From Antedon mediterranea (taxonomy: Eukaryota; Echinodermata; Crinoidea; Comatulida; Antedonidae), in contig NC_092670.1 in assembly GCF_964355755.1 (NCBI RefSeq), positions 34,399,795-34,463,794 of the forward strand: DNA of 64,000 nucleotides. Reading direction: 5' to 3'. A model generated the notes under the pieces. The model was given only the letters and a program-made list of their open reading frames with translations. It was not told where the DNA came from and made no database searches. Shown in pieces: positions 35,938 to 60,377 of the stretch. The translations under genes were made by a program, and so were the position numbers. How positions within the stretch are numbered: the stretch's first letter is position 1; the number at the start of each line of letters is the position of its first letter.

Positions 35938-36525
35938 TTAATCATGGTTACTTACATACTCATAAACATTATTATTGTCATTTGCAGGTCTACTATATAT
36001 TCTATTACTATCTATCATCTGCGGTGGTCCGATGGGCTGAATATAGTCCGACTTCTTTTCATTTTGTTCGGATTCATTGGTCAAATTGAAGCTACTGTAG
36101 CAATCATTTGTAAATAGCTCAATATGTTCCGTTTTATTTGTATGCATACTATCTAGGCCTACATTTTGTGAGAGAGGTTTCTTATCTGCTTTCTTTGCTC
36201 CCAATGCCTCTATTTGTATTCTTGTGGAAGGCTGATCTTCATCTTTAATGCCGTCTTTTCGTTGTTTGTCTGTTTTGTCATTTTTCATTTCAGTTTTTGA
36301 CTTATAAACGTGGAATCTTGTCAGTACATACAGCAATACAATAATAACAACTAGCAACAGGATTCCAAGTGTTATGATGCTTAAATCTTTAAAATCTTGA
36401 TTGTAGTTAAGGTTCAGCTGTTGAGATACATCGTTTGATGAAATACATTTTGTTGGTCCAGTATATGTTCGATAATTGCTGGTTACCGTTTTCTGTGTTG
36501 ACATACGAAGCTCGGCAGAGCTCAT
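35938..36525 (-). CDS. R1: headless receptor-like membrane protein, 195 aa
   Basis: Not a named family. Starting at the ATG at 36525: a short outer stalk (about 42 residues, no signal peptide), one membrane span (LSIITLGILLLVVIIVLL and following), and a basic then acidic tail with ELFTNDCY, SDYIQPI, NRIYSRP and NVYEYV. Tail and span match the longer receptors at 46.7-57.4 kb, but the Ig-like part is absent. Its nearest relative is the gene at 58.5-60.4 kb. The tyrosine boxes suggest SH2-type signalling (inferred). Without a signal peptide it could insert as a signal-anchor protein, or be a remnant, or use an upstream exon that I cannot see. Confidence 0.7.
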   Translation of the reverse strand: MSSAELRMSTQKTVTSNYRTYTGPTKCISSNDVSQQLNLNYNQDFKDLSIITLGILLLVVIIVLLYVLTRFHVYKSKTEMKNDKTDKQRKDGIKDEDQPSTRIQIEALGAKKADKKPLSQNVGLDSMHTNKTEHIELFTNDCYSSFNLTNESEQNEKKSDYIQPIGPPQMIDSNRIYSRPANDNNNVYEYVSNHD

Positions 36526-36878
36526 TTTTGTTGGCACTTAGACCTACTTGAAATGTTACTAAATCGGAAGTATGCTAATTTCTTTTACTTAACCAACCAC
36601 TTGGATGCTACAATTAGTGTATCTTACTGTAAAAACTCACAATGTTTCTTTTCCAATTAACATCCAATAAGTCTTGATCAACTCCAACGAAACACACAAT
36701 AATTATGTTAAACTCATGATTACATTGGATCATATCTATCAAATTGTTATGCAGAGTCACAGTCCACAGCCGATGTACATGAGCTTGCATTCAGTTTTAA
36801 ATTCCTCTTCTAAATTCTCTACACATACTATCCCAATCAAGGTACTGTATGTAACACAATATTCTTCTTCCGTATATG

Positions 36879-37709
36879 TGTAACAGGGTAACAGGTATGC
36901 TTATACCCAAATACTTGAATGATTTATCTGCTGAATCTGACTTGAATCTGAGAAACCTTGTGGGACCCATTAAAGTAAAAGCTGGAATGATAAGTGACCA
37001 TGCTATAAATAGATGAGTCACCTCATCCAAGTGGCGGGAAAATGGTCATGAATATTTAGTGTATAATGTTTCAGTATGGGTCAGTTCATAAATGGACAAG
37101 GGATTTTGTTAATTGATTTGCATTTTTAATAGTTTCTTTTTTTGTATAACCGAACTTTAAATTGATAATTACATGTGTATGACTCGAGTTACAATACAAT
37201 CGTTCTGTAAACTATGAAATAACGTTATGGTAAATGTATGTACCATCGGTTAAAAATTGTCATAGTACCCAACTGGGAATGGATGACACTTACTAGTGCC
37301 TAGCCCAAAGTGAAGGTTTTCATCTCCTTCCGACTGGTTACTAGGTAAGCATCTATATTTTTATCTCTCTTAATTTTAGAATTGTTTTACTATAGTTAAT
37401 ATAGTTGATTAGTTATTTGATGTTATACTATAGTTAATATAGTTGATTAGTTAATTGATTGTTACACTAGACACAACGCAATAGTAGCCTATACTGTCGT
37501 TAATGATACGATCACTGATGTTATCTTAAATAGTAACACTGTTTTTGTTATATCTCCTTCCGACTGGTTACTAGCTTCAATAAAAGAATTTAACTTTTCC
37601 AAACCAAGAACTGTCTCTGTGGATGATTTTATTGTGTTTGTGCCAGTGCTGCAGCTCCTGAAAATACTACGCGATAAAGCTACGACGCTAGTAGTACGAA
37701 CCTGTTACA
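36879..37709 (+). repeat. 5' LTR
   Basis: 831 bp, TG...CA ends. It carries an internal near-duplicate ACTATAGTTAATATAGTTGA. Confidence 0.92.
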
Positions 37710-38766
37710 TTTGGTGCCGTGACCAGGATTTGCTGTTCAGCCAGGAAGGGATCACTCTCAAGAAAGACTACGATAAGTGCTGATTAGTCTTTTCTTGAGT
37801 TTTAACCAGCCATTTGGAAAGATGTGGATCTTACTCAACCTTACGTCCCTGAAGCTGCAGTACCAGAATCTGCTAATACAATATCCATAGAACAATAAGA
37901 AACACCATCTATCAACCCTGCTTCTGCCCAGGCATCTGTGGAACCGTCAGAAACTTCTCCTTCAACTGAGCATGATATCACTCCCGTCGCAGTCGTCATG
38001 GATCATACTGATGATGATAACTCCTCAGGAGAAACACGTTCAGAACCAACCTTAAGTCTCCGACGTTCGAAACGTGTAATTAAACCGCCAGACCGATACG
38101 GCTTTATTTCTAAGTGGCTCTGGGGAACCCCTGCACTAACATTCCATGTGGGTTGTTTAGATGTTTGATTGTTTAAACTGTATTAATTTTGCTTGACACT
38201 TAACTTGTTTTTTTATATAATTATGTCTGAGAGAAGACAATTTTACTTGATTTTAATTTTAATCTCAATAGTTTAATTTGTTACCTTTATTGTATACTGT
38301 ATCTTTTGTATGATCATGTTTTTTTAACATACTTGTTTGCCATGTGTATGGCTTGTGTTATGTTGGTACATCACCTTGTGTTGGGTGGGATTGAACCTTC
38401 GAGTAGTAATCGCAGGATTTCGAGAAACTTGTGAAGTGTAAACGGGCACTTCTGTACACCGACTATTGTGGGGATGGCCATCCTTCAATAGTTTATCCAT
38501 TTGGATAAATTTTTATTGGTTGTTTCTAATAATTCTGCATAACTTCTCTCATTGGTTCAATCAGGTACAGGTATGCTGTTGTGATACAACAGTTTGGTTT
38601 TTTTTATAAATGCCATTTAGTTAAGTTTTTTTATTTTTAGTTTTTTTATGTAATTCCCTATGATGTCATTTTCATTGTATAAATCGTGACTAATGTACCA
38701 AGGTATTTAGGTTTAGGTTAATGAATTTGTATATCACTGAGATTTAGCAGATAAATGGGGGGTGAG

Positions 38767-39598
38767 TGTAACAGGGTAACAGGTATGCTTATACCCAAAT
38801 ACTTGAATGATTTATCTGCTGAATCTGACTTGAATCTGAGAAACCTTGTGGGACCCATTAAAGTAAAAGCTGGAATGATAAGTGACCATGCTATAAATAG
38901 ATGAGTCACCTCATCCAAGTGGCGGGAAAATGGTCATGAATATTTAGTGTATAATGTTTCAGTATGGGTCAGTTCATAAATGGACAAGGGATTTTGTTAA
39001 TTGATTTGCATTTTTAATAGTTTCTTTTTTTTGTATAACCGAACTTTAAATTGATAATTACATGTGTATGACTCGAGTTACAATACAATCGTTCTGTAAA
39101 CTATGAAATAACGTTATGGTAAATGTATGTACCATCGGTTAAAAATTGTCATAGTACCCAACTGGGAATGGATGACACTTACTAGTGCCTAGCCCAAAGT
39201 GAAGGTTTTCATCTCCTTCCGACTGGTTACTAGGTAAGCATCTATATTTTTATCTCTCTTAATTTTAGAATTGTTTTACTATAGTTAATATAGTTGATTA
39301 GTTATTTGATGTTATACTATAGTTAATATAGTTGATTAGTTAATTGATTGTTACACTAGACACAACGCAATAGTAGCCTATACTGTCGTTAATGATACGA
39401 TCACTGATGTTATCTTAAATAGTAACACTGTTTTTGTTATATCTCCTTCCGACTGGTTACTAGCTTCAATAAAAGAATTTAACTTTTCCAAACCAAGAAC
39501 TGTCTCTGTGGATGATTTTATTGTGTTTGTGCCAGTGCTGCAGCTCCTGAAAATACTACGCGATAAAGCTACGACGCTAGTAGTACGAACCTGTTACA
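38767..39598 (+). repeat. 3' LTR
   Basis: 832 bp, almost identical to the left LTR, preceded by the polypurine tract. Confidence 0.92.
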
Positions 39599-39602
39599 TA
39601 TG

Positions 39603-41890
39603 ACACCACATAAAATCATAAGTGGTAATTAAAATAAAATTAGCTTTTCCTTCCTATTGTTCTTATAAGATAACTTTCTACTTTTGGGGGTTTTTGTATT
39701 CAGAAACATACTTCTTTGTATCTGTTGTTGCACTGGTTCTCGGGTTTTTTTCTAAGAGATGTTGCAACACTTTTCCAGCATTCGTCTTAAGTGCATCTCC
39801 TCCATCCATTTTTTATCTTCTTTTTTTAAAAATTGTATTGTATTGTGTAATGGTATTGGTGCGGAGCTAACAGCATTTATATCTTAAAACTGTGTACGTT
39901 ATATTATAGATGATATATTATGTACTACATTGCTGCTCACAGGTGATCATACGTAAAACACGTCATACTATTTGTAGAATCATTAATATTTATTTCTTAA
40001 TAGCTTTTAAAATAAATTTGCTGTTGTTAAGAAAACATTAATTTAGCAATACATAGTAATTCCTTGGCTCCATAGTATCAGAAATAGTACATATAGAAAA
40101 GTTTTGTTTTTACAGAATTAGTTATGATTTTAAAAGTCATTTGTAGAGGCATTACTATTTCTTTTAGTAGTTTTAAAAACTAAACTTATGACAAACAAAA
40201 TCATACACTACTTACTTTTAACCATTTATTATGTTATTTTAAAAGTGAAAACATTATTTTTTTTCGGTTTTTCCCCTATGGCAATGAATAACCTATTCAA
40301 AATCTGATTTAATCAATCTTCATTTTCCATGTTTTTGGGGGACAATACATCTTTAAGACAAGCTGTTCTAAAATTCACTGTGTTCATCAACGTCATAAGT
40401 ATTTAAAACAAGTATAGAAAAATGGGTAGCTTTAAGAAATACTATTATGCTAATATAATTTCTAATTTGATACGATTTATCAGAAAAGGAATTACTGTGA
40501 TACGAGTTACAGGTGGTACTGATCTATTATGATTTTTATTTCGTTTTATCTTGTATATAAATACATTGTATAATTCGAGTTGTAAAATGAAAACAAACAA
40601 ATGAAAATGAAAATCTCACAAATCCTTTACATATAAATATTTTAAAACGAGATAGATGATAATGATGATCATTGTCAAGTGTATAGAAAAATATAAGAAA
40701 ATTAATGAAAAAAGAAGGTGACACGGAATTCATAAATGTAAAAATGTTACTGATGAATTATAATGACATTTAGAATTAACAAAAATGTGTTAAATTATAT
40801 TATTTTATGTAATGACATGAGATAATATGAATGTGAATAAAAGTGGTGTTTGCGCCACAAAAAAGAGAAAAAAAAAGTATTAAAATAAAACAGTTTCAAA
40901 AAGTGGAGAGTGGAGTATTAAAACATTTATATAATAAAGATGACATTTTATAGCTTAGAGGTCTTTTTTATGTCTCCAAATATTAATACTTCATTTGGGT
41001 TATTGACAATTTTATAATTATCTAAGGAAACCTAATTTGGCTACCTAAATTAAATACATTGTTACATGCAGTTTATAATTCAGAAACTATTTTTAGTTTG
41101 TTATGTAACCCAATATGTTCTTCCGTATATGACAAATAAAGCACTCATATGTACGAAAGCAGGCCTACTAGAAATCATAAACGTTAATTACCATCATCCA
41201 TTTCCGTCATTATTTTCATTGTAACATAACTCTAGATTTTTGTGTTTGTGTAAAGTTTTATTCAGAAATAATTTCCTTGGATAATTGTATTAAAATCATA
41301 TTTTAGTCAATAATACTACTAATAATTAGTTTATTGATTTATTATATACATTACCGTTTTGTAATATGCGTTTTTCAATAATTGAAAATATATTGAATAA
41401 GTTCAAATTCAAATTCAAATTCAAAAAGACATTTATTTTCCTCCATAGCAATACAATACAAAATAATAAACAGAAATGGTAAGGTATATTAAAAATGAAA
41501 TAGATGATTGTTGGATATACAAAAGAAAAGTGAATTTAGATCCATTGATTTGTTAAAAGTCCTATTTTCAACAGTTTATAGACTTGTCCCAAGTCTGTAT
41601 TTAATTTGTCTTTTTTATATTAGTTCACCAGTCGATGTTTCGATTTTTGTCTGAAAAATATACAGCTCGGGTATTATCGTATGAAACGCCATGTGGGTCA
41701 AAATATTTATCTTTTTTCTAATTTTATATTAAAATACAGTCTAGAAACTATACTGGGGATAAAGTACGGTACTAATTAAAGGATTCTGGTTCAGAATAGA
41801 AACGAACTAGGAATGCCTAGGTAGGCAGGCCTACAAGACGCATTTCTACATTCTAGCTATGAGTTTATTATCATTATGTTATAATATATC
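39603..41890. other. receptor-array spacer, paralogous to 48.2-49.6 kb
   Basis: From ACACCACATAAAATCATAAG onward the sequence follows 48,219-49,630 with many small differences, ending at the MITE end GGGGACAATACATCT near 40,340. After that no gene or repeat is recognised until a (TTCAAA)n run at about 41,402. Confidence 0.75.
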
Positions 41891-42756
41891 GGTATATCTT
41901 TATTCAAATGACACAAATAGCCAATGGCTGAAACCGTAGTCGTACAATATTAAAAACAATCATGATAAAAACAGGTAAAAAAAAATAAAAATAAAGCAGA
42001 TAATCAAAATAACATTACAAAACATTATTTAACAGTCTAGCCATAGTAGGAACAGGTGATTTCTTAAATCGCTCAGTTCTGCCAAACGGAATACGAAGGA
42101 GGGGGCGAGACCGAAGGCCGACACCGAAGGCCGACATCATATTCGCGACAATGAGGGAACATATTCCGAAATATGTCAGCAGAGGCAAGAAGTTTCTCAC
42201 CAAAAGACAACACCAGACCCACCCTCCTCGTCACAAGCGATGGGAGACCGACGATCTCGCACGCCTCTTCATACATGTGATCAGTCCCTAGTATAATTCG
42301 AAGAGCTCGTTTCTGGATTCTCTCAATAGCACGAGACTTCTCCCCAGTTAGGTAACCATGCCACACAGGACAAGCATATTCTAACAAAGGTCTAATATAA
42401 GCTAAGTAAACATTAATAAGGTCATTCATTGGTGCATTGGCCTTTTTTAGAATGCATAATGTGAACAATTTTCTTGAAGCCCTACGTACGATATCATTAA
42501 CATGGAGATTCCATCTTAAGTCATTACTAATAGTAACACCTAGGAGTTTCATATGACCAACCACCTCAAGATCAACACCATTGATGGAGAAATTGGGAGG
42601 AGGAACATCACGACGAAGGAAACTAATTTGCATAGAATTGCACTTAGGTAACATGTTATTATTGTTACTCCATTCGTTAAAGTCATCTAGTAAAGACTGC
42701 ATATTTGAATTATCACCAATTCTATTCATCTCACTTAAAGTTAAATCATCCACTTA
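41890..42756 (-). mobile_element. LINE 3' part (reverse transcriptase C-terminus)
   Basis: Minus-strand frame 42073-42753 begins at the catalytic VDDLTL box and includes KLLGVTISNDLRWNLHV, YIRPLLEYACPVWHG and RIQKRALRIILG, all typical of APE-type LINEs. A frameshift near 42.1-42.2 kb moves the C-terminus (RSRPLLRIPFGRTERF) to another frame. The 3' end with AATAAAG is near 41,895. Confidence 0.85.
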
Positions 42757-43344
42757 TTTCCACCGTCTGCAGCTTTCTAAACAAGCATCATTAATCAGGA
42801 CTAGATGCCCTCTATTTTATTGGTTTACATAGCGACGATCTTAAGAATCATTTTAATTGACTAGATGGTTCTCGAATACATAATAATTTCAGCGTTAAAA
42901 AAACTGGCGATTTCAAATGTACGTACCGCAGGACAATAATACATGTCGTTTACAGGAACGAATAAATAGACAGTGATTTATGTACTCAACTAAAATTAGC
43001 ACCCTGGGAATTACTTTCGAAAGAGAAACTTGTCACAAAATGAGACCAATTGTTTAAGTCAAATTTAAACAAACTTAATTTGTGTTTTGTATGTAATATT
43101 AGGGTTGAGGGATGGGGAAGAGGATGGGTGCAAAGAGGAACAATTTTTAAATATATTCTTTATCCATTTAGTAACGAAATATTAATTGTTTTCATGTTTT
43201 ACAAATAATATACCACTAAACACAGTAAAACATTGCGATGTAATACTTTGTTGAAACTATCACCGTCCAAGTCGATTGAAATAGTACAGTACATGTAACG
43301 ATACATCACTACGACGTGTATATGTTTATATAATGTAAAACAAT

Positions 43345-44115
43345 TTGTGAAAACCACCTCTATTCGGGGAAAATCATAAATTCGATTTAATCGTCAATAA
43401 ATATTAAATTATCTAACTCAACTTAATTAGTAGGCCTAATGGTTTTCAATTGTTTCTTAGAGCCAATTCATACTTAAGTTGGTTCCTACCCTACCCACCA
43501 AAGTTGTTCTGCGTTTAGGGCATGTGATGTACCGTAGGCCTATTCTCTACTGGTTTTACAACCTTGAGGGAAGGGTGATGATGTGGGTGGTTTAACTGCA
43601 ATAATAAAGATTTGTACATAATATACGGCGAGTGAAAACGCTAACTCATTATTCGTTTAAAAAAAATTATATCCAACCTCTGCAGCACAGATTGAAAACA
43701 AAAATTGATCGAATTTCGAGTATACAGTACTGTACTTGCCTTTACGACGCCTGAGGGAATAGACACTTGTGGAACAGAGATTGGAATGTTCCATTCATCG
43801 CAAATCAATAAATTTGTATAAACGTATATTAAATCTATCAAAATAGTATTTTTTAAAGAAAATCGGCCTGTCTTCAACATTATGATGCTGTACTCGAGCT
43901 GTTCAACCGGTTTTCAGCCATTAAAAACAATTATCGTAGGAGGAGATAGGAAAATGCGAAGCATCCTCGTATATTGTCTGCGGGTATTTTTCAAGACGGA
44001 CATCCATTAGACAGTGTATACCACGATCGAAAAACACCCCTATTTGGGGCAAATCGTTGAACCTAAATTCGTTTTAATCGTCAATAACTAATTATCTAAC
44101 TTAATTTAATTAGTA
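43345..44115. repeat. diverged direct duplication
   Basis: 43,345-43,430 and 44,030-44,115 are about 80% alike by eye (shared TTTAATCGTCAATAA and AATTATCTAACT). The sequence between holds no gene. Confidence 0.6.
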
Positions 44116-44234
44116 AACAGGGTTACCATCAGGTGGTTAAAATCAGTACCGAAAGTAGGAACCAACTTTATATACCATCGAGTACAAATTCTAGAAGTAA
44201 GGCGCGATTTACCGAATTTTGCCCTTACGTAAAT

Positions 44235-46660
44235 TTATATATAGATGAGGAAAAGAATAGGGCCTAATTTAGTTCCTTGAGGGACGCCGCAAGTAATTTG
44301 GGCAATAGAAGAAACTGAATTGTCGTGCTTGGTGTTGATAGTACGGTTAGTAAGAAAGCTGCAGACGGTGGGAATAATGGATCGTCTAACACCAATATCT
44401 ATCATTTTACGAATAAGTACAGAATGATCTACATGATCGAAAGCCTTAGTGAAGTCGATGGTGCAAAGATTAACATACTTATTGCCCCCTCAAGGTCTTT
44501 AACAATCGAGTCAATCATGCTGACCAAGTAGTGGGTCGTTGATGCACCTTTTCTACTTCCAAACTGTTTTGAATCCAGTTTACCACTGGTATCTTCAACG
44601 ATCCATTTCACAAGAAACGATTCGAAAACGCGTGCAAAAATGGGGGTCAATGAGATAGGTCTTAAATTATTACAACTACTAGCAGATTTAGTCTTAGGTA
44701 AAGGGATAATCGTCGCAGTCTTCCATGGGTCTGGGAATAATCCTTCTTTCAAAGCGAAATTAAATACACTGGTTAAAGGTGGAGCAATCTCAAATGCAAA
44801 CTGTTTGATGAGCCTCAACGGTAAGTCATCTGGGTGTCCTGACTTACTAACAATCAACTTGTTGAGTTCTGCTTGCACTTGACCAACATAAATAATTGAA
44901 GGTTCGGCTGATGGTAAATATGCAGGTAGAGTTTTCCTGTCAAGGGATGAAAGTTGACGACAAACACTGGCAAAGTGAGCGTTGATTTCCTCCACTGTAT
45001 CACGTGGTCCAAGACCAGGTATCTTAAATTGTGGTTTAGGTTTAAGATTACATAATTTCTGGATTGCACGATGCCAGCCAGACGGGTTATTACTTTTCAG
45101 GTTAGCAATCGAGCTCTCATAAAAATTAACTTTCGAACTTGTAGGCCTAATTGCTCTTTGTGCAGCATTGCGAAGTGGTATCCATTCATCATTTTTTCCA
45201 TACTTAATAAATACTTCTTGACGCTTGTCCAGGACGTTCTTAACACTCTGTGTTGTTAACCACGACGGTTCAGATACTCTCCTGCGCTTAGTAGAGGTCG
45301 GGAACGCTTTCGAAAATTCACCTTTAAGTATGGAGTGAAGTTCGTCGGCTTTACTAGAACAATCATCCGCATTATACACTTGGAGCCAATCATACTGTGT
45401 GATCCATTCACCAAACTTCCTAACAGACGATTCTTTAAAGGGTCTCGTGGTAATTTTGTAATGCGTTTTTTGTGGCAAACAAATCCGAGGTTCTAATAAA
45501 ACAGAATCGTGGTCACTACGTCCCAGAGGCGGTAAACGCTTAGGCTCGTGGAACAAATCAAGGTAATTCACAAACACTTTATCCAATATAGCATCATCGC
45601 GTGTAGCAAAATTGACGACTTGGGTCATTCCCAGTAAAATGGTAAAATCCTCAGTTTGTAAATCATTAAAATCTCCAAGTACCAATATAGGCGCAGTAGG
45701 CTTAATAGTGCGTATTGAGTCAATAGTATCAACTATGTGAGCTAAAAGATCACCACTGCCTGCAGCGGAAGGTGGGTAGTAAATAGCCCCAACATAGAGT
45801 ACCGGATATTTACATACACAAGGCATTGTAATCCTTGTCCACAAACATTCAAAACAACACGGTCTATGCTTGATTGGCACTTGCGTTGTGAGATGCTCAT
45901 TTACATAAATCGCGACACCTCCGCCTCGTCTATCAGTTCTGTTCTTAGCAATACATGTAAATCTGGGAATCTGTGCTATGCATTCATTGATCTCATTAAG
46001 CCACGATTCAGTTATCACAGCTATGTCAACACGATGTTTTAAAATTGTAGCTTGAAATTCATTAATTTTATTAACAATTGACCGAGCATTACTGAGAAAA
46101 AATTTAGGAAGTCCCGTGCTACTATAATATTGCACCGAGTACTTGTATTTATCAAGTTATCAGCGTTAATCCCGCGTCCAATTGAAACACCATTAGTGTT
46201 CCTGTGCCTACTGCTAATACGTACAGAAATATTCCTTCTAAGTTTCTTGCCCGCTCGTTTACCACGGCGTCTTTTTTTTACTTTAAAGTTATCAATACAG
46301 CACGGCTGATTACAATTTAAATCATACTCACTAAGACATGTAAAATATGCCTTCGTTGTATCATAATCGACCATACGTGGTTGGGTCAATCGCGGGTAGA
46401 ACCCTGGATCTCATCGCGAGCACCGAGTCACAATCGATCCAAAACGGCCTACGATTATGTTCAATCAAAAAGACATCAAAACACCTCAGAAACACAAAAG
46501 TTATCAAAATTCCACTAAACATGTATACAAACAGCAGAACAGTTCCCCAAAAAAAGCACAAAACTGAACAAAATCCGGTAAAATCAGCAATTAAGCGGGA
46601 CAAATCCGCGAGGTCCAGCAGGTGTACGTCTGCGCCTCCTAATATGTTCTGCATGTTACT
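44235..46660 (-). mobile_element. LINE 5' part (endonuclease and reverse transcriptase N-terminus)
   Basis: Frame 44429-46135 (568 aa) carries a full AP-type endonuclease (FLSNARSIVNKINE, ITESWL, GGGVAIYV, LGDFND, RSDHDSV) and the start of the reverse transcriptase. A frameshift near 44.49 kb puts the catalytic region (TIDFTKAFDHVDH, then GVPQGTKLGPILFL) in another frame. It breaks off at about 44,240, just before the DD box. A short basic ORF at 46,039-46,389 probably belongs to its 5' end. CR1/L2/Jockey-type by eye. Confidence 0.88.
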
Positions 46661-46713: not shown

Positions 46714-47949
46714 TTATACGTGCGCTTTAGTAATAGGCTGGAGATAGTCGTCCACTCTATCGTCCGATATTACATTCAAGCTACGGCCATAACATTCATT
46801 TGAAAATAGTTCAACATGTTCCATTTTAGTTATAGGCTTATTAGGTTTCTTATCTTGGTTTGCCCTTACTGTTGCACCGTGCCTACTTGTGGAAGGTTGG
46901 GCACAATAATCTTCAATGTCATGGTATACATGTTCAACTTGTTGCATGTTTGTACTCTTCTTCATAGATTGTGACAAGTTATTATCAGTTTGTTTGGCTC
47001 TCTCTACTTTCGTCTGTCTACCCGTAGGTGGTTTTACAAGTGTATTTTTCTTGCAAGATTCATCTGCTGACTTTGGTTTCACTGACTCTGGTTGTTTTTT
47101 TGTTGAATGTTGATCTGCATCATTGATAGACTGTTTTCTTTTAAGTTCATACAACAACAAAAGAAGAACAAATAGCAGCAGGATTCCAGTTGTAGTTGCA
47201 AGGATTATAATGACCAAATGTGATGTGTTCCATTTCGTTGGTAGATCATCCTTTAAAATTATTGCAGAACATATTTTTTCTGAAAGATTGGAATCATATG
47301 TGGGATATAAAAAACAATAAAAGAATATACCATCTCCTGATTGAAAGCCTATAAAACTTTGATTAAAACTCATTGTGACCGAGGAATTAGGCAAATAGTA
47401 AGAACGTGTAATGTTATGTGATCCTTGAATCCATCCAATTGTGATTTCAGTTGCAAAGTTGTTGTCGTCCACACGATTTGAACTATAATATTGCAGCTTA
47501 CATGGGATTGTTATTTTTTGTCCCTCTATAATGTTATCAACAAAGTCTTCACAGAGAAAATCCCATCCACTGTGAACCGTGTGTGTTCCATACACGCTAC
47601 CTGAAGTAATCATGAAGTGTTGATTATCCTCGTCCTGACATGTGAATATTCCTGAATCATTGTTATTATTGAAAGATAGAAAGTATTGACAGTCTGCTTG
47701 AAAGTTTTGTACATAAACTGTTTTGTAGAAATATGATAGACCTACTGTAGAGCTTTCGGCGATGTTTCTTAAAACATTTAAGCTGTACGTTTTATGTGAT
47801 TCTATGATGTATATTGGTTGTCTGTCTCTCACAAAGTCCGTAAAGAAAAAATCAAACTCAACAAACTGTTCTTTTGCAGTTACATACCTGATACACATCA
47901 AACTGATCACAATAAGACACAGATTAAAACACGGCATAGTGCGAACCAT
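46714..47949 (-). CDS. R2: two-Ig-domain type I receptor, 411 aa, intronless
   Basis: Signal peptide 1-25. First Ig-like domain with C87 and DSGIFTC (C104); second with C150, W173 and SGDGIFFYC (C212). Membrane span about 244-267 (IIILATTTGILLLFVLLLLLY). The tail of about 144 residues has EHVYHDIED, HVELFSNECYG and VDDYLQPI. Compared with its neighbours the third Ig domain and most tail repeats are missing: the segment CSAIILK joins almost directly to the membrane span. Several N-glycosylation sites (NIT, NSS, NQS, NLS). A poly(A) signal lies near 46,665, close to the 5' end of the LINE. Role inferred: surface recognition with tyrosine-based signalling. Confidence 0.85.
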   Translation of the reverse strand: MVRTMPCFNLCLIVISLMCIRYVTAKEQFVEFDFFFTDFVRDRQPIYIIESHKTYSLNVLRNIAESSTVGLSYFYKTVYVQNFQADCQYFLSFNNNNDSGIFTCQDEDNQHFMITSGSVYGTHTVHSGWDFLCEDFVDNIIEGQKITIPCKLQYYSSNRVDDNNFATEITIGWIQGSHNITRSYYLPNSSVTMSFNQSFIGFQSGDGIFFYCFLYPTYDSNLSEKICSAIILKDDLPTKWNTSHLVIIILATTTGILLLFVLLLLLYELKRKQSINDADQHSTKKQPESVKPKSADESCKKNTLVKPPTGRQTKVERAKQTDNNLSQSMKKSTNMQQVEHVYHDIEDYCAQPSTSRHGATVRANQDKKPNKPITKMEHVELFSNECYGRSLNVISDDRVDDYLQPITKAHV

Positions 47950-48003
47950 TACACTTCTGAGCAGTATCTGAAAAACTTATAAAATGAGACCTACATACGT
48001 AAT

Positions 48004-49635: not shown

Positions 49636-50210
49636 TAGTTCGGATGTGCTTGCAAATCTTTTAAACGTTTAAACATTATGACATTATGACATTTGTTTGA
49701 ATTGTCTTATACAATATCCAATTTTGTATTCGATTTTAATTAATCTAGTCAATATTTCTTGTACTGTATCCATGAACACTTTTCTTTTCAGTGTAGATAT
49801 TAAGTATCAATGACATATAAGTTTTAAGTTTCATATCAGATCGTAAACATACTTTTAAGTATGTTTACAAATTTTGTTTTAAACAAGTTAATTTTGATTG
49901 ATTTAATATAATAATAATGGCATTAGAAGAAATATAATTTGGCATATGTCACTGTACAGTATATGATTCATGCGAATATTAAGGGTTGTTTTTTTATTGT
50001 TTTTTTTAATGCTTTTGGGTCATTTTCTTTTATTTACCAAGATTATATGATTGCAGCTCTAACGATACAAGCATATTTTGTCTGTTTACATTTATTAAAT
50101 TATGCATTTTAAATTTCCAATGCAATCACTATTTTTAAGATATTATTTCTAAGTAACCATCGTCATTTTCATCGGCACTGTATATTTTATTGCTGTGCAA
50201 CTGTGTTGTT

Positions 50211-51941
50211 TTAATGGGCTGAAGGCAGTCGTCCACTGTCGGATTTCTTTTTTTCATTGGTCATGTTGTTAAAGTTATAGCCATAACATTCATTTGTAAA
50301 AAGCTCCTTTATATTTGTAGGCCTAATATTTACCTTTTGTGGTTCCGTATCTGCTTGCTTCGCTCTAACAACTACTTTCCCTTGTCTACTTGTTTCAAGT
50401 TGTTTTACTGTTGTGTTCCATTTCGTAAATTTAGACAATTCTTCGTCTGGACTCACAGCTGCTACCTGTCTTCTCCTGGGACGATGATCATGATCCAGTT
50501 TAATACTATAATATATATCCTCAGGTTGTTCCACTTTTGTATCTTTCTTTGTAGATTTGGAGGATTCATTTTCTGCTGACTTTAGCTTCATATTCTCAGT
50601 CTGTCTACTCCGGGGTCTACTCACAGAAGGTTGATCGTCGTTAATGCTGTAATATATGTCTTCAAATTGTGTTACTTTTGTATTTTTCTTCGTAGATTTG
50701 AATGGTTCATTATCTGCTGACTTTTCTCTCATTTCTTCTACCTTTCTACTTGTTGAAGGTTGGTCATCTTTAATGTCATGTACGTCAGGTGTTTTCTCAT
50801 TTTGAATTACAGTGTTTGACATTTTTGACCTTTTATGTATGTAAAGTAATAAAAATGCAGCAAACAGAAAGAGAATTCCAGTTGTAGTTGCAAGAATTTG
50901 AATGATTACATCTTTATCGTAGTTGACTTGGTTGTAATTTCTCGGTACAGCATCTGTTTGGTCGTTGAAAATGACTGTTTTATCCAGTGGCACATCATTT
51001 ACTGTGAATTCTACAGACTCTGAGGTATGTTGATTGTCACTACTCACCAGACATTGCACAGTGTAATGACCAGCGGACAATCCTTTAAAGCACATCTCAG
51101 TGCCAGTAGCATCCATGTTACCCTTTCCATTCAATTTCCAGTTGTAAGTCTTTTTACCAACTCCAACCGTAGCTAAACAATAAAAACAGTGTTCGTCATC
51201 AGTATCATTGTTCAAAGTCTTGATTTTTGCCATTAATTGTGGGTAAACCTTTAGAATTATAGCACTGCACTCATTTCTATAATACCACATTCCCACTCGA
51301 AAAATACAATAAAAGAAAATACCATCTCCCGATTGGAAGCCTTCTAATGTGTAGTTTAACCTTACGGTCTCTGAGGCATTGTATACATAATAATACTGTG
51401 TAATTTTGTGTGATCCTTGGATCCATCCACTTGTTATTTCATGTGCGTTGTCGTCGTACGACCACGACCACGTACGTATCAGCGTACACGCAGTTATTAC
51501 TTCTTCGCCCTCTATAATATACGGTTTTAAATCTTCACAGGCAATTTCCCAGTTGAGAAATTCTTGAGATGTACCTCCATATTTGTCACTTGAAGTAATC
51601 ATAAAGTGTTGATTATCCTTATTTTGACATGTGTATATTCCTTCATCATTTTTCTTATTGAAAGATAGAAAGTACTGACAGTTTACTGTCAAGTTTTGTT
51701 CGTGAAATAGTTTGTAGTAATATGCTGATGTATAGCTACTAACGATGTAATTTAAAACGTGTCCAGTTAAGTTGTACGTTATTTGTGATGGTATTATATT
51801 TAGTACATGTTGCGGATGACTATAAGATGAAATGTAAAAATCAAACTTAATAATCTCTTCTTCTGCAGTTACATATTTCAATATTAGCATACAGATCGCA
51901 GGAAGACACAGATTAAAACACGACATAGTTTGGACAACCAT
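50211..51941 (-). CDS. R3: three-Ig-domain type I receptor, 576 aa, intronless
   Basis: Signal peptide 1-26. Ig-like domain 1 with C88 and DEGIYTC (C105); domain 2 with C152, W173 and SGDGIFFYC (C212); domain 3 with C252, W268 and YTVQC (C297). Span about 345-368 (IIQILATTTGILFLF). The tail of about 208 residues carries two copies of a ~45-residue module ending EDIYYSI (429-433, 476-480) and ELFTNECYG at 546-554. The last 12 residues (SDSGRLPSAH end) appear out of frame: the adjacent frame reads VDDCLQPIKTT, the box that closes the related proteins. So a late one-base shift has removed the final tyrosine box; here the tyrosine is also a cysteine. Otherwise intact. Confidence 0.88.
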   Translation of the reverse strand: MVVQTMSCFNLCLPAICMLILKYVTAEEEIIKFDFYISSYSHPQHVLNIIPSQITYNLTGHVLNYIVSSYTSAYYYKLFHEQNLTVNCQYFLSFNKKNDEGIYTCQNKDNQHFMITSSDKYGGTSQEFLNWEIACEDLKPYIIEGEEVITACTLIRTWSWSYDDNAHEITSGWIQGSHKITQYYYVYNASETVRLNYTLEGFQSGDGIFFYCIFRVGMWYYRNECSAIILKVYPQLMAKIKTLNNDTDDEHCFYCLATVGVGKKTYNWKLNGKGNMDATGTEMCFKGLSAGHYTVQCLVSSDNQHTSESVEFTVNDVPLDKTVIFNDQTDAVPRNYNQVNYDKDVIIQILATTTGILFLFAAFLLLYIHKRSKMSNTVIQNEKTPDVHDIKDDQPSTSRKVEEMREKSADNEPFKSTKKNTKVTQFEDIYYSINDDQPSVSRPRSRQTENMKLKSAENESSKSTKKDTKVEQPEDIYYSIKLDHDHRPRRRQVAAVSPDEELSKFTKWNTTVKQLETSRQGKVVVRAKQADTEPQKVNIRPTNIKELFTNECYGYNFNNMTNEKKKSDSGRLPSAH

Positions 51942-51980
51942 TACAACTTATAAGTAGAAACTAAACTTGTGAAAAACATA

Positions 51981-52685: not shown

Positions 52686-54513
52686 TTATATCTTATTGCA
52701 ATATAATCGTGTTGCTTTGATGGGCTGGAGATAATCATCCACTTCTGATTTTTCATCTTCTGATATTATTTCTAAGTAACCATCATAATTGTCATTAGCT
52801 TTATATATTTTATCGCTATATAGCTGTACTGTTTTGATATGCTGGAGGTAATCATCCACCTTATCTTCTAGTTTCTCTGTTCCATGTGTTTGGGATTCAT
52901 TGATCACATTGAAGCTACACCCATAGCATTCATTTGTAAACATCTCACTGTGCTGTGTGTTATTTGTATGCCTATCATATACTGTGGATATGTGATGTTC
53001 GTTTTGTAGGCCTACTTGCTTTGCTCTCACTATTCTCATAAGTCTCCTGGTTAAAGGTTTATTCACATCGTCTTCAATGCTATGATATACGTCTTCCGGT
53101 TGTCCAACGTTTGCAATTTTCTTCGTAGACTGAAATGGTTTTGTATCTGTTTGCTTAGACCTCACCACTTCCATTTGTATACTTGTTGATGCTTTTCCAT
53201 TTTTCTTTTCAAATTTGCATGGTTCATCTCTTGTCTTAGTAGGTCTCACGTCCTCTCCATCTCTAATTGTTGAACGTTGATCATCTGTAATTTCATGTAC
53301 ATTTACTGTTCTTTCATTTTTCATTACAGTTTTTGACAGTTTACCTCTGATTGTTTTCAGTATATAAAACAATAAAAGTAAAACAAATATCAGCATCATT
53401 CCAGTTGTAGTTGCAAGTATCATAATGATTAAATCTTTATCGTGGTTGGCTTTTTTGAACTTCTGAGATGTATCCAGTGTTGAATTTGTTGGTACAGCAT
53501 CTATTCGATCGTTTTCCGTTGTCGCTTCGTCTGTTGTTGGTATACCGTTATCACAGGAACTCGTGTTTGTCTCTGTTGGAATGATAACATGTACTTCAAA
53601 TTCTACAGAATCTGAGGTATGTTGATTGTCACTACTCACCAGACATTGCACAGTGTAATTACCAGCGGACAATCCATTAAAGCACATCTCAGTCCCAGTA
53701 TCATCCATGTTGCTTTTCCCATTCAGTGTTCCAGTTGTAAGTCTTTTTACCAACTCCAACTGTAGCTACACAATAAAAACATTGTTGTTCTCCACCAGTA
53801 TCTTTTTTCGAAGTCTTGAGTGTTGCTTTTAATTTTGGATAAACCTTCAAAATGATTGTATAGCACTCACTTTTAATTGAACTAGGATATTCAATATCGG
53901 CAAAACAATAAATGAATATACCATCTCTTGGTTGAAAACCTTTAAAAGTTTGTTTATGATACATTGTTGTCACAGTGGTATTGAGATTATAAGACTGTGT
54001 GATCTTGTGTGACCCTTGGATCCATCCAAATGTTATTTCATATGAAGAGTCGTCAAAGGAATACCTACGTTTCAGTTTGCATGTAGTTATGTTTTCATCT
54101 CCCTCTATAATGTACTCTGCTAAATTTTCACAACCAATTTCTATATTGTTAGTTAAATAATTGGGTGTAATTACATGTATATCACCTGAAGTAATCATAA
54201 AATGTTGATTATCCTTATCTTGACATGTGTATATTCCTTCATCATTGTTGTTATTGAAAGATAGAAAGTAATGACAGTCTACGGCTTTTTGATCGGAAAT
54301 TCGTTTGTAGTAATATGATAATGTTTGGGTATTAACGATATAGCTTAAAACTTGTCCAGTTAGGCTGCAAGTTTTGTTTGATAGTATGATATTTAGAGGT
54401 TGATCCCCAGAATCCCAAAAATGTAAATCAAACACAACAAGATTTTCTTCAGTAATAAAATTTCTGACAATCAGCAAACTGATAATCACAAGATAAAGAT
54501 TCAAACACAACAT
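52686..54513 (-). pseudogene. R4: three-Ig-domain receptor broken by a one-base frameshift
   Basis: Two overlapping minus-strand frames make one receptor: 53701-54513 (signal peptide, Ig domains 1 and 2, start of 3) and 52686-53759 (rest of domain 3, stalk, membrane span MILATTTGMMLIFVLLLLFY, tail). The break is at about 53,725-53,740, just after TYNW in the third Ig domain, where one extra base shifts the frame relative to R3 and R5. The tail has EDVYHSIED, HSEMFTNECYG and two DDYLQxI boxes (QHI, QPI) separated by NYDGYLEI. As everything else is intact, the shift is recent, or a sequencing error, or a segregating variant. Confidence 0.8.
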
Positions 54514-54570
54514 CGTGTTCGTAGAACAATTACAACGTATGAGCAGTTTATATTTTAAAAACTTGGATAA

Positions 54571-54660
54571 ACATACGTACTGTTACGAAAGCTTTTAATA
54601 TACAATAATTTCTTGGCTTCATGGTATCAGAAATAGAAAGTACAGCAGTTTTGTTTTTAC
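54571..54660 (-). promoter_or_regulatory. conserved upstream block of R4
   Basis: Same box order as for R3: ACATACGTAC, TGTTACGAAAGCTT, TTCTTGGCTTCATGGTATCA, AGTTTTGTTTTTACA. Confidence 0.55.
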
Positions 54661-54705: not shown

Positions 54706-54826
54706 CACTACTATTACGGCCATAACTGCGTTGAAACATCGGTTCTCGTAAAAGCACCGAAGTTAAGCTTGGACCCGGTTGCGTTCTGGATGGGAGACCG
54801 TCTGGGAATCGCGGCGGGTGCTGTAT
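54706..54826 (+). rRNA. 5S rRNA-like sequence, probably a pseudogene or 5S-derived SINE head
   Basis: About 120 bp, the length of 5S rRNA. The internal promoter parts are kept: AGTTAAGC (box A), GGATGGGAGACC (box C), and the 3' part CTGGGAATCGCGGCGGGTGC. The ATCGGTTCTCG and CACCGAAG segments recall echinoderm 5S. The closing stem between the two ends looks poorly paired and no T-run terminator follows directly, so a functional gene is doubtful. It lies between R4 and R5. Confidence 0.65.
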
Positions 54827-55144
54827 ATACCACAGAGTTATGGTATAATGATAATATCGGACAAGCATACCAAAACTATCAATATGCCTATAATCCGAAA
54901 TTCCTCAGTTTCCAGTTAAGCTTGAGGACCAGAATAAACACATTTTTTTTAACTACTTTCGTCAGTATACTTTCATTAATACTGGTATATACATCTTCAG
55001 TCTGTTCTATATTAAGTTCTATCGGAAATTATGACTTTGGTGTAACAGCTTTTGCCTTTTTATTTGTTAAAGGTTGTCACAGATGTTTTTTTATGGTTAG
55101 TTAATTTTGTATATTCTATCGCATATGGTACACTACTGGTCAGT

Positions 55145-57415
55145 TTATACTCTCGTCTCGTATATTTTATTGCTATAAAGCATTGTTGTTTTGATGGGCT
55201 GGATGTAGTCATCCACTCTACAGTCGGATTTCTCATGTTCGCATAATTGAGATTCATTTGTTATATTGCCACAGCCATGAAATTCACTTTTAAGTAGCTC
55301 ATGTTTCCGGATTTTATTTTTACTAGTTACTTTTTGCAGGTTAGGTCGCTCATCTGATACCGTAGCCACTTTGCAACATGGTTGATCATCTTCATATTTA
55401 ATGCTGTAATTGTATACGTGTTCAAGTTGTTCTACTTTTATATTTTTCTTCGTATATTTAGACGATTCAATATTTGCTAGGTCGTCCATTACCACTTCCG
55501 TCTGCCTACTTGTTGAACATTCATAACTCTCGTCCTCGTCTTCAGATTCTATGTTTGTATTTATCTTGTGAAATGTGGATGATTTGTTAATTGGCTTCAG
55601 CCTCACAGTCTGTCTAAATTTTGAATTTTCATCATCTTCAATGCTGTAATAGATTTCTTCGTGTTCTACTACTTTCAAATTTTTCTTCGTAGATTTAGAC
55701 GAATCATTATTCGCTTGTTTTGGTTTTACAACCTCTCCTTGTCTAATTGATGATGTCTGATTATCATCATCTTTAATGCTATAATATATATCTTCACATT
55801 CTTCTATTTTAGTATTTTCCGTCGTAGACTCATTATCTGATGAGCTTAGCCTCATATCCAGTCTACTCGATGAATGTTCATTATCTGTTTGATTAGTTCT
55901 CACGAATTTCGCTTGTCTATTTGTTGAACGATGATGATCATCATCATCTTTAATGGCATGTAGTACGTTTGTGTGTTGATTTACCTTTGTTTTGTCATTT
56001 TGCATTACAGCGATTGACTTTTCCTCATGAAATCGTTTCAGTACAAAAAGTAATACACACAAAACAGATAGCAACAAGATTCCAAGAATTATGATGCTTA
56101 AATCTTTTAAATAGTGATCACAATTGACTTCGCTGAAATGCCGAGATGTATCCGTTCGATGGTTAACAGTTATCGTTTTGTCTGTTGCCATACCGTCATC
56201 TCCAGAGCTCGTTTGTGTCTTTGTTGTATCCCTTACTTCATCTTCCACAGTATTTGATGTACGGTGGTTGCCAGTTTCGGTTTTTGTTGTTGCTATACCG
56301 TAATTCCTAAAGCTCGTTGGTTTTCTTGTTATATCATTTACTCGAACTTCCACAGTATTCGTTGTGTGCGAATTTGAAGTACGATGCTTGTCTGTTGCTG
56401 TTTCCTCTGTTGCCATTGCATAATCCCATGAAGTAGTTGTTCTCTCTGTTTGTATAATATTATTGGTTACTTTAAATTCTACAAACTCAGATGTATGATG
56501 ATTTGCAGTAATCGCAAGACATGTAACAATGTAATTACCAGGAGACAGTCCATTAAAGCACATTTTGGTGCCAGTATTATCCACTATGCCCTTTCCATTT
56601 AAAGTCCAGATATACGTTGGTCTATTTTGGCCAACTCTAACCGTTGCTACACACGAAAAGCATTGTTCGTCGCCGGTGTCCAAAGACTTGATATTTACGA
56701 CTAATTGTGGGTAAACCTTTAAAATTATTGCATAGCACTTTTTACTTGTACGGTACTTGGATGAAGGATAACAATAAAAGAATATACCATCTCCAGATCG
56801 AAAGCCTATAAAACTTTGATTAAAACTCACTGTGACCGAGGTATTATGCAAATAGTAAGAACGTGTAATGTTATGTGATCCTTGAATCCATCCAATTGTG
56901 ATTTCAGTTGCAAGGTTGTTGTCGTTCACACGATATGAACTATAATATTGCAGCTTACATGTGATTGTTATTTTTTGTCCCTCTATAATGTTATCAACAA
57001 AGTCTTCACAGAGAATTTCCCATTCATTGTGAATCAAATTTATTGTTCCATACACGTTACCTAAAGTAATCATAAAGTGTTGATTATCCTCATTCTGACA
57101 TGTGTATATTCCTTTATCATTGTTATTATTGAAAGATATAAAGTATTGACAGTCTACAGCTTGAAAGTTTTCTTCATAAAATGTTTTGTAGAAATATAAT
57201 AGGCCTTCTGTATAACTTTTAACGATATAGCTTAAAACTTGTCCATTTAAGCTGTACGTTTTATGTGATTGTATGATATTTATTCGTCTGTCTATTCCAG
57301 AGTTCATAAAATGCAAATCAAACTTAACAAGCTGTTCTTTGGAAGTTACATACTCGATACACATTAAACTGATCACAAGAAGACACAAATTAAAATACGA
57401 CATGGTTCGAATCAT
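55145..57415 (-). CDS. R5: three-Ig-domain type I receptor with long tail, 756 aa, intronless
   Basis: Signal peptide 1-25. Ig-like domain 1 with C89 and KGIYTC (C106); domain 2 with C153, W176 and SGDGIFFYC (C215); domain 3 with C252, W270 and YIVTC (C299). A Thr/Ser-rich stalk (about 326-437) has three worn repeats, each ending near HRT. Span 438-460 (LSIIILGILLLSVLCVLLFVL). The tail of almost 300 residues carries EDIYYSI (543-547), EEIYYSI (588-592), EHVYNYSI (668-672) and, at the end, DDYIQPI and NKIYE. The expected ELFTNECYG box is worn (HELLKSEFHG). The largest and most complete member. Its span resembles R1 and R6 rather than R2-R4. Confidence 0.9.
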   Translation of the reverse strand: MIRTMSYFNLCLLVISLMCIEYVTSKEQLVKFDLHFMNSGIDRRINIIQSHKTYSLNGQVLSYIVKSYTEGLLYFYKTFYEENFQAVDCQYFISFNNNNDKGIYTCQNEDNQHFMITLGNVYGTINLIHNEWEILCEDFVDNIIEGQKITITCKLQYYSSYRVNDNNLATEITIGWIQGSHNITRSYYLHNTSVTVSFNQSFIGFRSGDGIFFYCYPSSKYRTSKKCYAIILKVYPQLVVNIKSLDTGDEQCFSCVATVRVGQNRPTYIWTLNGKGIVDNTGTKMCFNGLSPGNYIVTCLAITANHHTSEFVEFKVTNNIIQTERTTTSWDYAMATEETATDKHRTSNSHTTNTVEVRVNDITRKPTSFRNYGIATTKTETGNHRTSNTVEDEVRDTTKTQTSSGDDGMATDKTITVNHRTDTSRHFSEVNCDHYLKDLSIIILGILLLSVLCVLLFVLKRFHEEKSIAVMQNDKTKVNQHTNVLHAIKDDDDHHRSTNRQAKFVRTNQTDNEHSSSRLDMRLSSSDNESTTENTKIEECEDIYYSIKDDDNQTSSIRQGEVVKPKQANNDSSKSTKKNLKVVEHEEIYYSIEDDENSKFRQTVRLKPINKSSTFHKINTNIESEDEDESYECSTSRQTEVVMDDLANIESSKYTKKNIKVEQLEHVYNYSIKYEDDQPCCKVATVSDERPNLQKVTSKNKIRKHELLKSEFHGCGNITNESQLCEHEKSDCRVDDYIQPIKTTMLYSNKIYETRV

Positions 57416-57440
57416 TATAACTCGTTAGCCGTTCCAAAAA

Positions 57441-57456
57441 ATTGTTACCAAAGCTT
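57441..57456 (-). promoter_or_regulatory. upstream box of R5
   Basis: ATTGTTACCAAAGCTT, one base off the box before R2-R4, about 30 bp before the start codon. Confidence 0.4.
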
Positions 57457-58462
57457 ACGTGATGATTCCTTTTCGTGTTCATCGTTAGATATGAAAGTAC
57501 GCTTCTAAACTACTTTAACTATATTGGCTTAAATTTCACATGATAAGCAATCAGAAATAGAAAGTAGTCATGTTTACAGATCTTTTATCTTTATTCATAT
57601 ACTGTTATTGTCTTAAATCAAAATAAAAAATCTACTAAATTATACAGTATTATCATATGTATATAGATAACTGTACAGGTGGCGCTATATTGTGTTCAAA
57701 ATAGAGAAACAATCTGTAGAGAGAAATTCGGATTTGTCCAAACTGTAAAAAATTCTGTCCAGGATGCCATAGTAAACTTAAACAGTCATGTAAATACAAA
57801 AGGATCGATATTTGCAAATTCTTTTGACAAAATCACTGGCCAAAACATTACTTTTTTAAAATTCGATTATTATCGTCAAAAAGAATAAGTTCGAAGTGTG
57901 TCCATTTTTTGACAAAATATTGATTGTTATGCGCTAACATTGCATCATCAATTTATGATGCCATAGTAACTAATTGCTATAACCTAGAAGGTGGGATAAG
58001 GTGTGTAGTTCAGATAGATTATACTGTACATGATTACTAAATATCCAGAGAGGTTTAGGACAATTCTTAGGGGAGGGGGAAATAGCAATTGTATACACAT
58101 GCCTGGATGATGGTAATCAGCACTTATTAACATTCAGTGTTACATACGGTACATGATTACTAAATATCCAGAGAAGTTTAGGAACATTCTTAGGGGAGGA
58201 GGAAATAGCAATTGTATACAAACCGTAGAATGTAAGAGTTTGTGTACCATACTGGTGAATCATTCTAAAGGTTTACCAACAATTTGAAACTTTGAAAAGA
58301 CACTGATGGTAGCGAACATTGCAGTGTGGCGGTTAGAGAATTTGATAAAAGACGTCTAATTTGAATGGAAATGGAAATGAAAAGATACGTTATAGTGTCT
58401 GATGAATTTGTACAACTTTTAATAAACTTAATTTCTTTCGAATTTTAAAAGTAAAAACAACA
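57457..58462. other. spacer between divergent R5 and R6
   Basis: About 1 kb without a gene. A ~121-bp tandem duplication lies at 58,021-58,230 (both copies hold ACATGATTACTAAATATCCA and GAAATAGCAATTGTATACA). The promoters of R5 and R6 must both lie here. Confidence 0.6.
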
Positions 58463-60377
58463 ATGAACTCTAGTGATGTTGGCGTGTCAACAGAGAACAT
58501 GGTGACCGGCACTTATCGAACAAAATGTAACTCGTCAAACGATATATTGAGCATATTCAATTACGATGAATATTTAAAAGATGTTGTCATTATAATACTT
58601 GGAATCCTGTTGCTGGTTGTTATTATTGTATTGCTTGGTGTACTGAAAATATTCTACAATAATAAATCAAAAATGGGAATCAAGAACAAAACAAAAGTCA
58701 AACACCGAAGAGACGGCTTTACAGCAGATGATGAAGATCAACCTTCTCTAAGGAAACATAGGCCTACAGAAGCATTGCGATTAAAGCAAACAAATAAGAA
58801 ACCTCTCTCACAGAAAGTAGGCCTAAATAGTAGGCATATAAATCAAACAGAACAAGTTGAGCTATTTACAAATGATTGTTACGGCCACAGAGGCGCAGCC
58901 AGCAAAGAATTAAAGGGGGGGTCAACCAAATATGTGAGTATTTTGCGAGCGAAGCGAGCAACCATGGGCTGGGGGCCAGGGGGCCGCCAAGGGCCCCCGG
59001 TCGGGGTCCAGGGTCCAAGCTTTGGCGGTCTAGCGCAATCTAGATCATTTGAATCGGTTTACGCACACACAAATATGACAATGTTAACACTAATAAACTG
59101 AAACAAAGAAAACAAAAAACAACTCTCATTTTCATTACAGAAAATTTTTATATTCCAGGCTGCCACAGACAAACACTTTTTTTCTTGCTTGTTTGTTGAT
59201 TTGTGTAGAGAGGCTGTAAACTCAGAGGAGGAATTATTTGAATTCCTCCCTTTTCACCATACAAAAGTTGCATGAAATGAACGTAGAGTTACAAAAGTTT
59301 GAAAAAATAAATTAGAATGATAGCATGGAGTGATATTATTAAATGAGAACCGTAAGTTTAGAGTTCATACACTGTGCAAGTCCAAGAAGCTATCTTGGCT
59401 CCGTGTGTATGTGAGACGCTTATCATACCCAGTACATACAATATTTTGTTTAAAAATATACCTATTTTGTTCGAATGTATAGTATAGGTGATAGCTTATA
59501 CATAATTGTAATAACTAACTTCTAAATTATTATCATACATTTTACGTTAGTTACTATAACGGCGCTCTAGACATCGCGTGATGCATCTTTAAACACATAA
59601 GTTTGGAACATTCTTCTTGGCTTGGAGACAGAATTCGCGAATGACATTCTCTGTATTAATGTTCATGTTAAAGTGTATGTTCATGAGGCACAGTCCCGAA
59701 AGCTGCTCATAAGACATGTGATTTCGCAAACAGGTTTTCGTTCTCCACAACGTCGAAAAACTCCACTCAGCTTCAGCAGACGTTACGGGCATAGGCCTAC
59801 GCGATTAGAAGAAGTGCACGCACATTCGGGAACACATCTGGATCCGCTAATTTTACACAGTCGCTTCCATCACTGAAGCTCGGAATGAAGATGTTCGTGT
59901 CTTGGCAGATCATCGTACCAAATTCAAGTTCCTTGAAGACTTCTTCAACATTACACTTCACGATAGACTCGGGTGCTACGCCAAATATTTTAAAGCATGG
60001 CCTGTTATCGGCAGAAAAACGGGTTTTTAACTCGGTTTGTAAATGATCAAGAAGTTGATTTGGTAATACTGCTCGGTAGTAATCTTCCACAGTATCTCCA
60101 GGATGATTTGATCTGTATTGTTGTCTCATGTTTTTATTTATTTTTTTCTTTAAAAAAAGGGAGGGTCAGGACCCCGTGACCCCCCCCCCCCCTCCCCCCA
60201 CTTGCTGCGCCCCTGGGCCACACTAGTTTCAATGTAACCAATGAATCTCAAATAAATGAAAAGGAGTCGGACTACATGCAACACATTGAAAGAACGCAGA
60301 GAAATAACAATATAATATATAGTACAGATGACAACAACGATGATGATTATGATTATGTAAATATAAATATGGCCTAA
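58463..60377 (+). pseudogene. R6: headless receptor-like protein split by a hAT-like insertion
   Basis: The original frame runs 58463-58887 and resumes at 60221-60377; together 194 codons with stop, almost the size of R1 (195 aa). It has a short stalk beginning MNSSDVG, a span (VVIIILGILLLVVIIVLLGVL) and a tail with QVELFTNDCYGH, then after the insertion SDYMQHI, NIIYST and DYDYVNI (YVNI fits the YxN Grb2-SH2 pattern). The frame is in phase across the insertion, so the gene was intact until then. As it stands, the ORF runs into transposon sequence and would end in about 70 foreign residues at 59,101. Confidence 0.82.
58883..60220 (-). mobile_element. hAT-like DNA transposon, decayed, inside R6
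   Basis: Ends CAGAGGCGCAGC at 58,888 and GCTGCGCCCCTG at 60,215 are inverted. GGCCA flanks both sides (58,883-58,887; 60,216-60,220), shorter than the 8 bp usual for hAT. Minus-strand remnants 59,797-60,129 and 59,589-59,792 include TSAEAEWSFSTLWRTKTCLR and MSYEQLSGLCLMNIH, the hAT dimerisation motif. Both frames are broken and no full transposase remains. Confidence 0.82.

Follow-up and report, generated by a model that had tools for sequence, protein, structure and literature searches.

A tandem family of intron-free Ig-like receptors with exchanged tails in the crinoid Antedon mediterranea

A 64,000-nucleotide stretch of the genome of the crinoid Antedon mediterranea (contig C1, positions 34,399,795-34,463,794, hereafter the window; the whole genome spans 354 Mb in 18 contigs) carries six genes, R1-R6, that combine extracellular immunoglobulin (Ig)-like domains, a membrane span and a tyrosine-rich tail in different ways. 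A reading made from the sequence alone had placed six such genes here and counted two Ig-like domains in R2, three in R3-R5 and none in R1 and R6. We located all six open reading frames (ORFs) in the window and confirmed the domain counts: R2 has domains D1 and D2, R3-R5 have D1, D2 and D3, and R1 and R6 lack them altogether. R6 is the only one of the six on the plus strand; R1-R5 are encoded on the minus strand. The six ORFs are real relatives, each read without introns, and their relatedness goes far beyond chance, with tblastn E values down to 4e-107 (R2 versus R5).

R5 (55145-57424) is a complete gene of 759 amino acids. D1 (residues 29-137; 57014-57340), whose fold assignment is of low confidence in the structural model, is followed by D2 (residues 138-236; 56717-57013) with an Ig-type Cys-Trp-Cys pattern, D3 (residues 237-322; 56459-56716) with an Ig fold, a long stalk (residues 323-441; 56102-56458), the membrane span (residues 442-466; 56027-56101) and a tail with tyrosine boxes (residues 467-759; 55148-56026). 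R2 (46714-47976) joins a signal peptide and R5-type D1-D2 to an R4-type span and a tail. R3 (50211-51947) comprises a signal peptide, D1-D3, a span and a tail with two EDIYYSI boxes, but its C-terminus is frame-shifted: the frame terminates at SGRLPSAH, and the expected C-terminal segment is found in a different frame at about 50138-50254, also on the minus strand. R4 (52686-54582) is read in two frames, 53701-54582 and 52686-53765, that overlap within D3, and thus contains a frameshift as sequenced. R1 (35938-36537) is a tail-only gene consisting of stalk, span and tail, with an ORF of 199 amino acids (195 from its methionine) and neither signal peptide nor Ig domain. R6 (58406-58885, plus strand) is likewise tail-only and homologous to R1 up to VELFTNDCYG, where about 1.3 kb of other sequence breaks off the tail; it resumes at 60219-60323 (plus strand) with homology to R1 residues 147-182. 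R6 residues 182-202, beyond the break, recur at 11448-11510 of the window (minus strand), so the interrupting sequence is probably a repeat element.

The tyrosine boxes named in the sequence-only reading are present in the window tails, although their sequences vary from gene to gene. IYYSI occurs twice each in R3 and R5 and is replaced by VYHSI in R4 and VYHDI in R2. The second box reads ELF[TS]NECYG in R2 and R3, EMFTNECYG in R4 and ELFTNDCY[SG] in R1 and R6, and is degenerate in R5; a DY[LI]QP box is found in R1, R2, R4 and R5.

R1 and R6 both start at an aligned methionine inside the region that is stalk in R5. Two more tail-only copies lie in the same region, L026:2110-2619 and L025:8005-8340. 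The L026 copy, like R1, is open through the end of the tail, and it has its start codon and 5' flank in common with R6; the L025 copy is interrupted, and its start codon is changed to ACG. The dN/dS (ratio of nonsynonymous to synonymous substitution rates) of the R1-R6 pair is 0.76. Judged from sequence, R1 and R6 appear to belong to a small tail-only subtype; they could also be mere 5'-truncated leftovers.

The six genes represent a small part of a large family. Two genome searches, one with R5 as query (best 59 of 205 candidates scored, 64 matches) and one with an ectodomain from L032 (135 of 147 candidates scored, 129 matches), yielded 193 match rows, of which 179 were merged into loci by joining those within 800 bases; we excluded six second pieces of a gene (five from the R5 search, one from the L032 search) and eight short repeats on contig C2. 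The merged matches give a genome total of about 100 loci, a number that is probably low; R4 and R5 were joined as one locus, and C1:34489531 is matched by stalk, span and tail only. An open frame of at least 300 amino acids is kept in 84 of the 100 merged loci. Linked at 100 kb, the loci fall into 16 groups on contigs C1, C2, C3, C7 and C10, three of which are single genes, in line with the tandem arrangement first proposed for the window. A GWIQG codon pattern occurs 178 times, a count inflated by tandem repeats, compared to 10 times in a reversed control. The eight excluded C2 repeats (C2:17551978-17553417) all match one piece of D3 at spacings that are multiples of 84 bases, which suggests a tandem array built from part of this domain.

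Close examination of the window and a further 216 kb around family loci returned 57 frames of at least 100 amino acids that match an iterated profile, 41 of which (at least 320 amino acids long or kept alongside) were taken on. By simple rules, 34 of these 41 contain signal peptide, D2, D3, span and stop within one frame, and R2 fails solely through its missing D3. The absence of introns is a family trait. Neither this trait nor the family's extent across the genome nor the head/tail exchange had been noticed in the sequence-only reading. Because genes of the immunoglobulin superfamily (IgSF) usually have introns between their Ig exons, this family may have begun as a retrocopy. In L027:2397-4232 (minus strand), D3 is duplicated, resulting in four extracellular domains.

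Our main new result is that like ectodomains are joined to unlike spans and tails. In a cluster near 3.75 Mb of C1, genes L009:2335 and L009:5381 share 97% identity over the 5' flank and the coding sequence through D3, past which likeness is limited to 83 bases over the span, at 74%. By contrast, L009:2335 and L010:4609 are 91% identical through the tail and 3' flank. Phylogenies of the two gene halves conflict accordingly: a four-gene ectodomain clade (support 100/100) is rejected by the tail half (p-AU, the approximately unbiased test, 7e-105) and a three-gene tail clade (support 100/100) by the ectodomain half (p-AU 4.5e-5), and the same tests in a cluster near 32.2 Mb of C1 gave p-AU of 2e-51 and 2e-49, all of these values being optimistic, as the clades were named after pairwise identities had been seen. 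Among the 19 pairs over 70% identical, eight, from three clusters, combine like heads with unlike span and tail; a pair in L018 differs only past the span, eight keep head and tail together, and in the remaining two the tail is missing or was not compared. The mosaic extends to the window itself, where synonymous differences between R2 and R5 rise from 18% of sites in D1-D2 to 63% beyond, and where the R2 span is 82% identical to that of R4. Near-identical ectodomains on different tails within one cluster are a feature of paired receptors.

How far the extracellular domains deserve the name Ig-like, as the sequence-only reading called them, differs among the three. D3 is an Ig-type β sandwich by predicted structure and fold matches, with Cys220/223, Trp237 and Cys270 each conserved in 90% or more of the sequences (R2 has no D3). 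D2 follows the Ig pattern, with Cys126 in 90% or more and invariant Trp142 and Cys179; its model consists of blocks at a predicted local distance difference test score (pLDDT) of 40-58, and fold alignments extend into it from residue 106 with root-mean-square deviations of several ångströms. D1 contains a DxGIYTC motif and invariant cysteines 17 apart, and its model stays under pLDDT 50, leaving the Ig assignment to D3 by fold and D2 by pattern. The two structure predictions had mean pLDDT values of 43.7 and 51.8. In Pfam, none of seven window proteins scored above a curated cut-off, and the sole Ig model reported was Ig_3 on R5, at 15.5 versus 30 bits. The amphioxus protein IgVJ-C2 is matched at 12% identity and ties with many other Ig chains, which indicates a common fold only. 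As adhesion proteins (nectin-like chains, NCAM and contactins) are among the fold matches, the family might serve adhesion, development or gamete recognition, for example when cells sort, arms regenerate, nerves are wired or eggs are fertilised, and have no immune role. A common fold, however, shows no function, and a birth-and-death repertoire accounts better for the copy number, the broken copies and the exchange of tails, making such roles unlikely.

The recurrence of tyrosine boxes in the tails, noted first in the window, stands out across the family. We counted motifs in 42 tails, from 40 frames together with R1 and R6 (L019:6118, which has no span, was dropped), holding 246 tyrosines among 5,386 residues, and compared them to shuffled tails, an expectation that overstates significance since the tails share descent. 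[DE]xxYxx[LI], the consensus of half an immunoreceptor tyrosine-based activation motif (ITAM), or hemITAM, occurs 34 times in 25 of the 42 tails, with several copies in some, compared to 3.9 ± 1.9 in shuffles. Other boxes also lie above the shuffles: [DE]xYYxI (18 versus 0.1), [LVI]F[TS]N[ED]CY (8 versus 0), DY[LIM]QP (6 versus 0) and Y[FY]xL at the C-terminus (8 versus 0). The tails thus appear enriched for an acidic, half-ITAM-like YxxI/L box, a resemblance to hemITAMs at the level of the motif. Several familiar signalling motifs showed no enrichment in the same tails, namely the inhibitory counterpart of the ITAM, the ITIM ([SIVLT]xYxx[LIV]; 10 versus 11.7 expected), the spaced ITAM (two YxxL/I/V boxes 6-12 apart; 1 versus 1.5), YxN (22 versus 20.9), YxxP (10 versus 9.0), NPxY (1 versus 0.7) and PxxP (3 versus 8.4). 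These counts rule out a classical ITIM or ITAM receptor, and signalling polarity would not be assignable from such motifs. The tail of L018:5050-7479 (plus strand) contains a roughly 43-residue repeat bearing EYVN or EYVD boxes, which we take to resemble Grb2-type docking sites.

Both the invertebrate source and the unfamiliarity of the family, as proposed before the origin of the DNA was known, are supported: the genome is that of a crinoid echinoderm, and neither Pfam, nor a sequence search of the PDB, nor any of three protein searches matched a named receptor family. Two database proteins, both annotated as "uncharacterized protein [Antedon mediterranea]", were retrieved with a profile built from 31 ectodomains, and one of them (P0001, 499 amino acids) is by eye the same as frame L020:2786-4312 from its methionine. 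Apart from these two Antedon proteins, no relatives were returned from among 2814 candidates for query R3 or 1044 candidates for the 31 ectodomains (both at E up to 0.01), or from among 7987 candidates for 29 full-length sequences (E up to 1). This is weak evidence for restriction, as the protein search needs shared five-letter words and limits length, and coverage of other echinoderms had no control. Judged by titles and the opening lines of abstracts, no paper listed in our literature searches, which do not reach most subscription journals, deals with a family of Ig receptors in crinoids. As far as these searches reach, we are dealing with a large, real and undescribed receptor family with an unusual gene structure and head/tail exchange.

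Three known systems share parts of this design. The fester co-receptors (FcoR) of Botryllus are clustered type I IgSF receptors of 520-610 amino acids, with 53 loci so far, and have long tails with hemITAM, ITIM or core YxxI/L/V motifs (PMC12065747). They combine one V-type Ig domain with a sushi domain and a pair of C2 Ig domains, and they are paired with fester genes (PMC12065747), whereas the Antedon genes are read in a single frame, show no ITIM enrichment and, in the seven window proteins, gave no sushi match at E up to 10. The vertebrate paired receptors CD300A and CD300C, whose ectodomains gene conversion keeps alike while their tails differ (PMC12447643), resemble the present family in this arrangement. 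CD300C, however, engages an adaptor through a charged span and has a motif-free tail, whereas 38 of 40 spans here have no charged residue in the core, and the swapped pairs compared here carry tyrosine boxes in both tails (two short L032 tails have few). The oyster protein CgIgIT2 is, likewise, an invertebrate IgSF receptor, with an ITAM tail and reported microbe recognition (PMC11999971), but it combines five Ig domains with a classical ITAM; the Antedon family numbers about 100 loci, its members have two or three domains (L027 has four), and ITAM spacing is not enriched in their tails. By the features compared, the family appears to be built like paired receptors and to belong to none of the FcoR, ITAM or ITIM families.

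The likeness to FcoR raises the question whether the Antedon receptors tell self tissue apart from that of conspecifics or competitors, as in Botryllus and Hydractinia. Crinoids are not known to form fusing colonies, and the family is spread over 16 groups on five contigs rather than held in one locus, both of which render allorecognition or self-recognition improbable. What favors it is that Botryllus uses clustered IgSF receptors with YxxI/L tails for this very purpose (PMC12065747).

The genes had also been described as fast-changing, which is supported only in part: pooled dN/dS is below 1 in all domains (D1 0.45, D2 0.77 and D3 0.59 from nine close pairs; tail 0.67 from six, after leaving out the L014, L018 and L019 pairs, whose tails are unlike or missing), and net positive selection on the head was not found in the pooled pairs. 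Single pairs exceed 1 in D2 (L022/L023, 4.0; L032:3120/5278, 1.45; L032:861/3120, 1.52), with few changes each. Weak constraint seems to maintain the frames. That most loci are inactive, a retrocopy having spread by tandem duplication, with mosaics arising from unequal crossing-over and the different tails being functionless, would agree with the missing introns, the frameshifts in R3 and R4, the interruption of R6, the stops at some loci, dN/dS values reaching 0.77 and the mere two family proteins in the database, but is very unlikely in view of the 84 of 100 loci with a long open frame, the pooled dN/dS below 1 in every domain and the tail boxes far above shuffles.

Considering the gene structure and motifs together, we infer recognition as the best-fitting role. 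These genes probably encode germline, intron-free type I recognition receptors of the crinoid, with tyrosine signalling of their own and built like paired receptors. Ligand would be bound by the two or three extracellular domains, of which at least D3 and, by pattern, D2 are Ig-like. Because most spans are uncharged and offer no usual handle for a signalling adaptor, the receptor would signal via its own tail: upon clustering, a Src-type kinase would phosphorylate the acidic YxxI/L and DY[LIM]QP boxes and, in some genes, the YVN boxes, at which SH2 proteins of the Syk or Grb2 type could then dock. Recombination near the stalk has probably joined similar promoters and ectodomains to different tails many times over, so that one recognition head may feed different outputs, as in paired receptors. 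An immune role is predicted on this basis.

A more specific version of this reading, which we put forward only tentatively, is a modular system in which a 5' cassette (promoter, signal peptide and D1-D3) and a 3' cassette (span, tail and 3' flank) are swapped at the stalk between neighbours, providing one head with several tails, with R1-type genes serving either as partners in signalling or as sources of tails. On this reading, paired receptors would have evolved independently in a class of echinoderms that branched off early, crinoids being the sister group of the other living echinoderms. If true, some 100 intron-free Ig-like receptors with exchanged tails represent another route to pairing one binding head with several outputs, and the family makes testable the independent rise of paired signalling where germline receptors face changing ligands.

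Other elements surround the array. Between R1 and R2 lies a non-LTR retrotransposon (long interspersed nuclear element, LINE; 42073-46156, minus strand), with an endonuclease ORF at 44432-46156 (Pfam Exo_endo_phos) and reverse-transcriptase-like frames, recognized by eye, at 42076-42753 and 44235-44489. Just upstream of R1, two direct repeats (36878-37436 and 38766-39325), which lie at a distance of about 1.9 kb and match at 100% in two blocks, resemble the ends of a young element of the long terminal repeat (LTR) type. Upstream of the array, a SPOC-domain frame (28274-28654, plus strand; E 8.6e-21) is probably part of a conserved gene. At 19963-20816 (plus strand) we observed overlapping low-complexity frames with CPTSTLL repeats, and strong negative GC skew at 20-24 kb.

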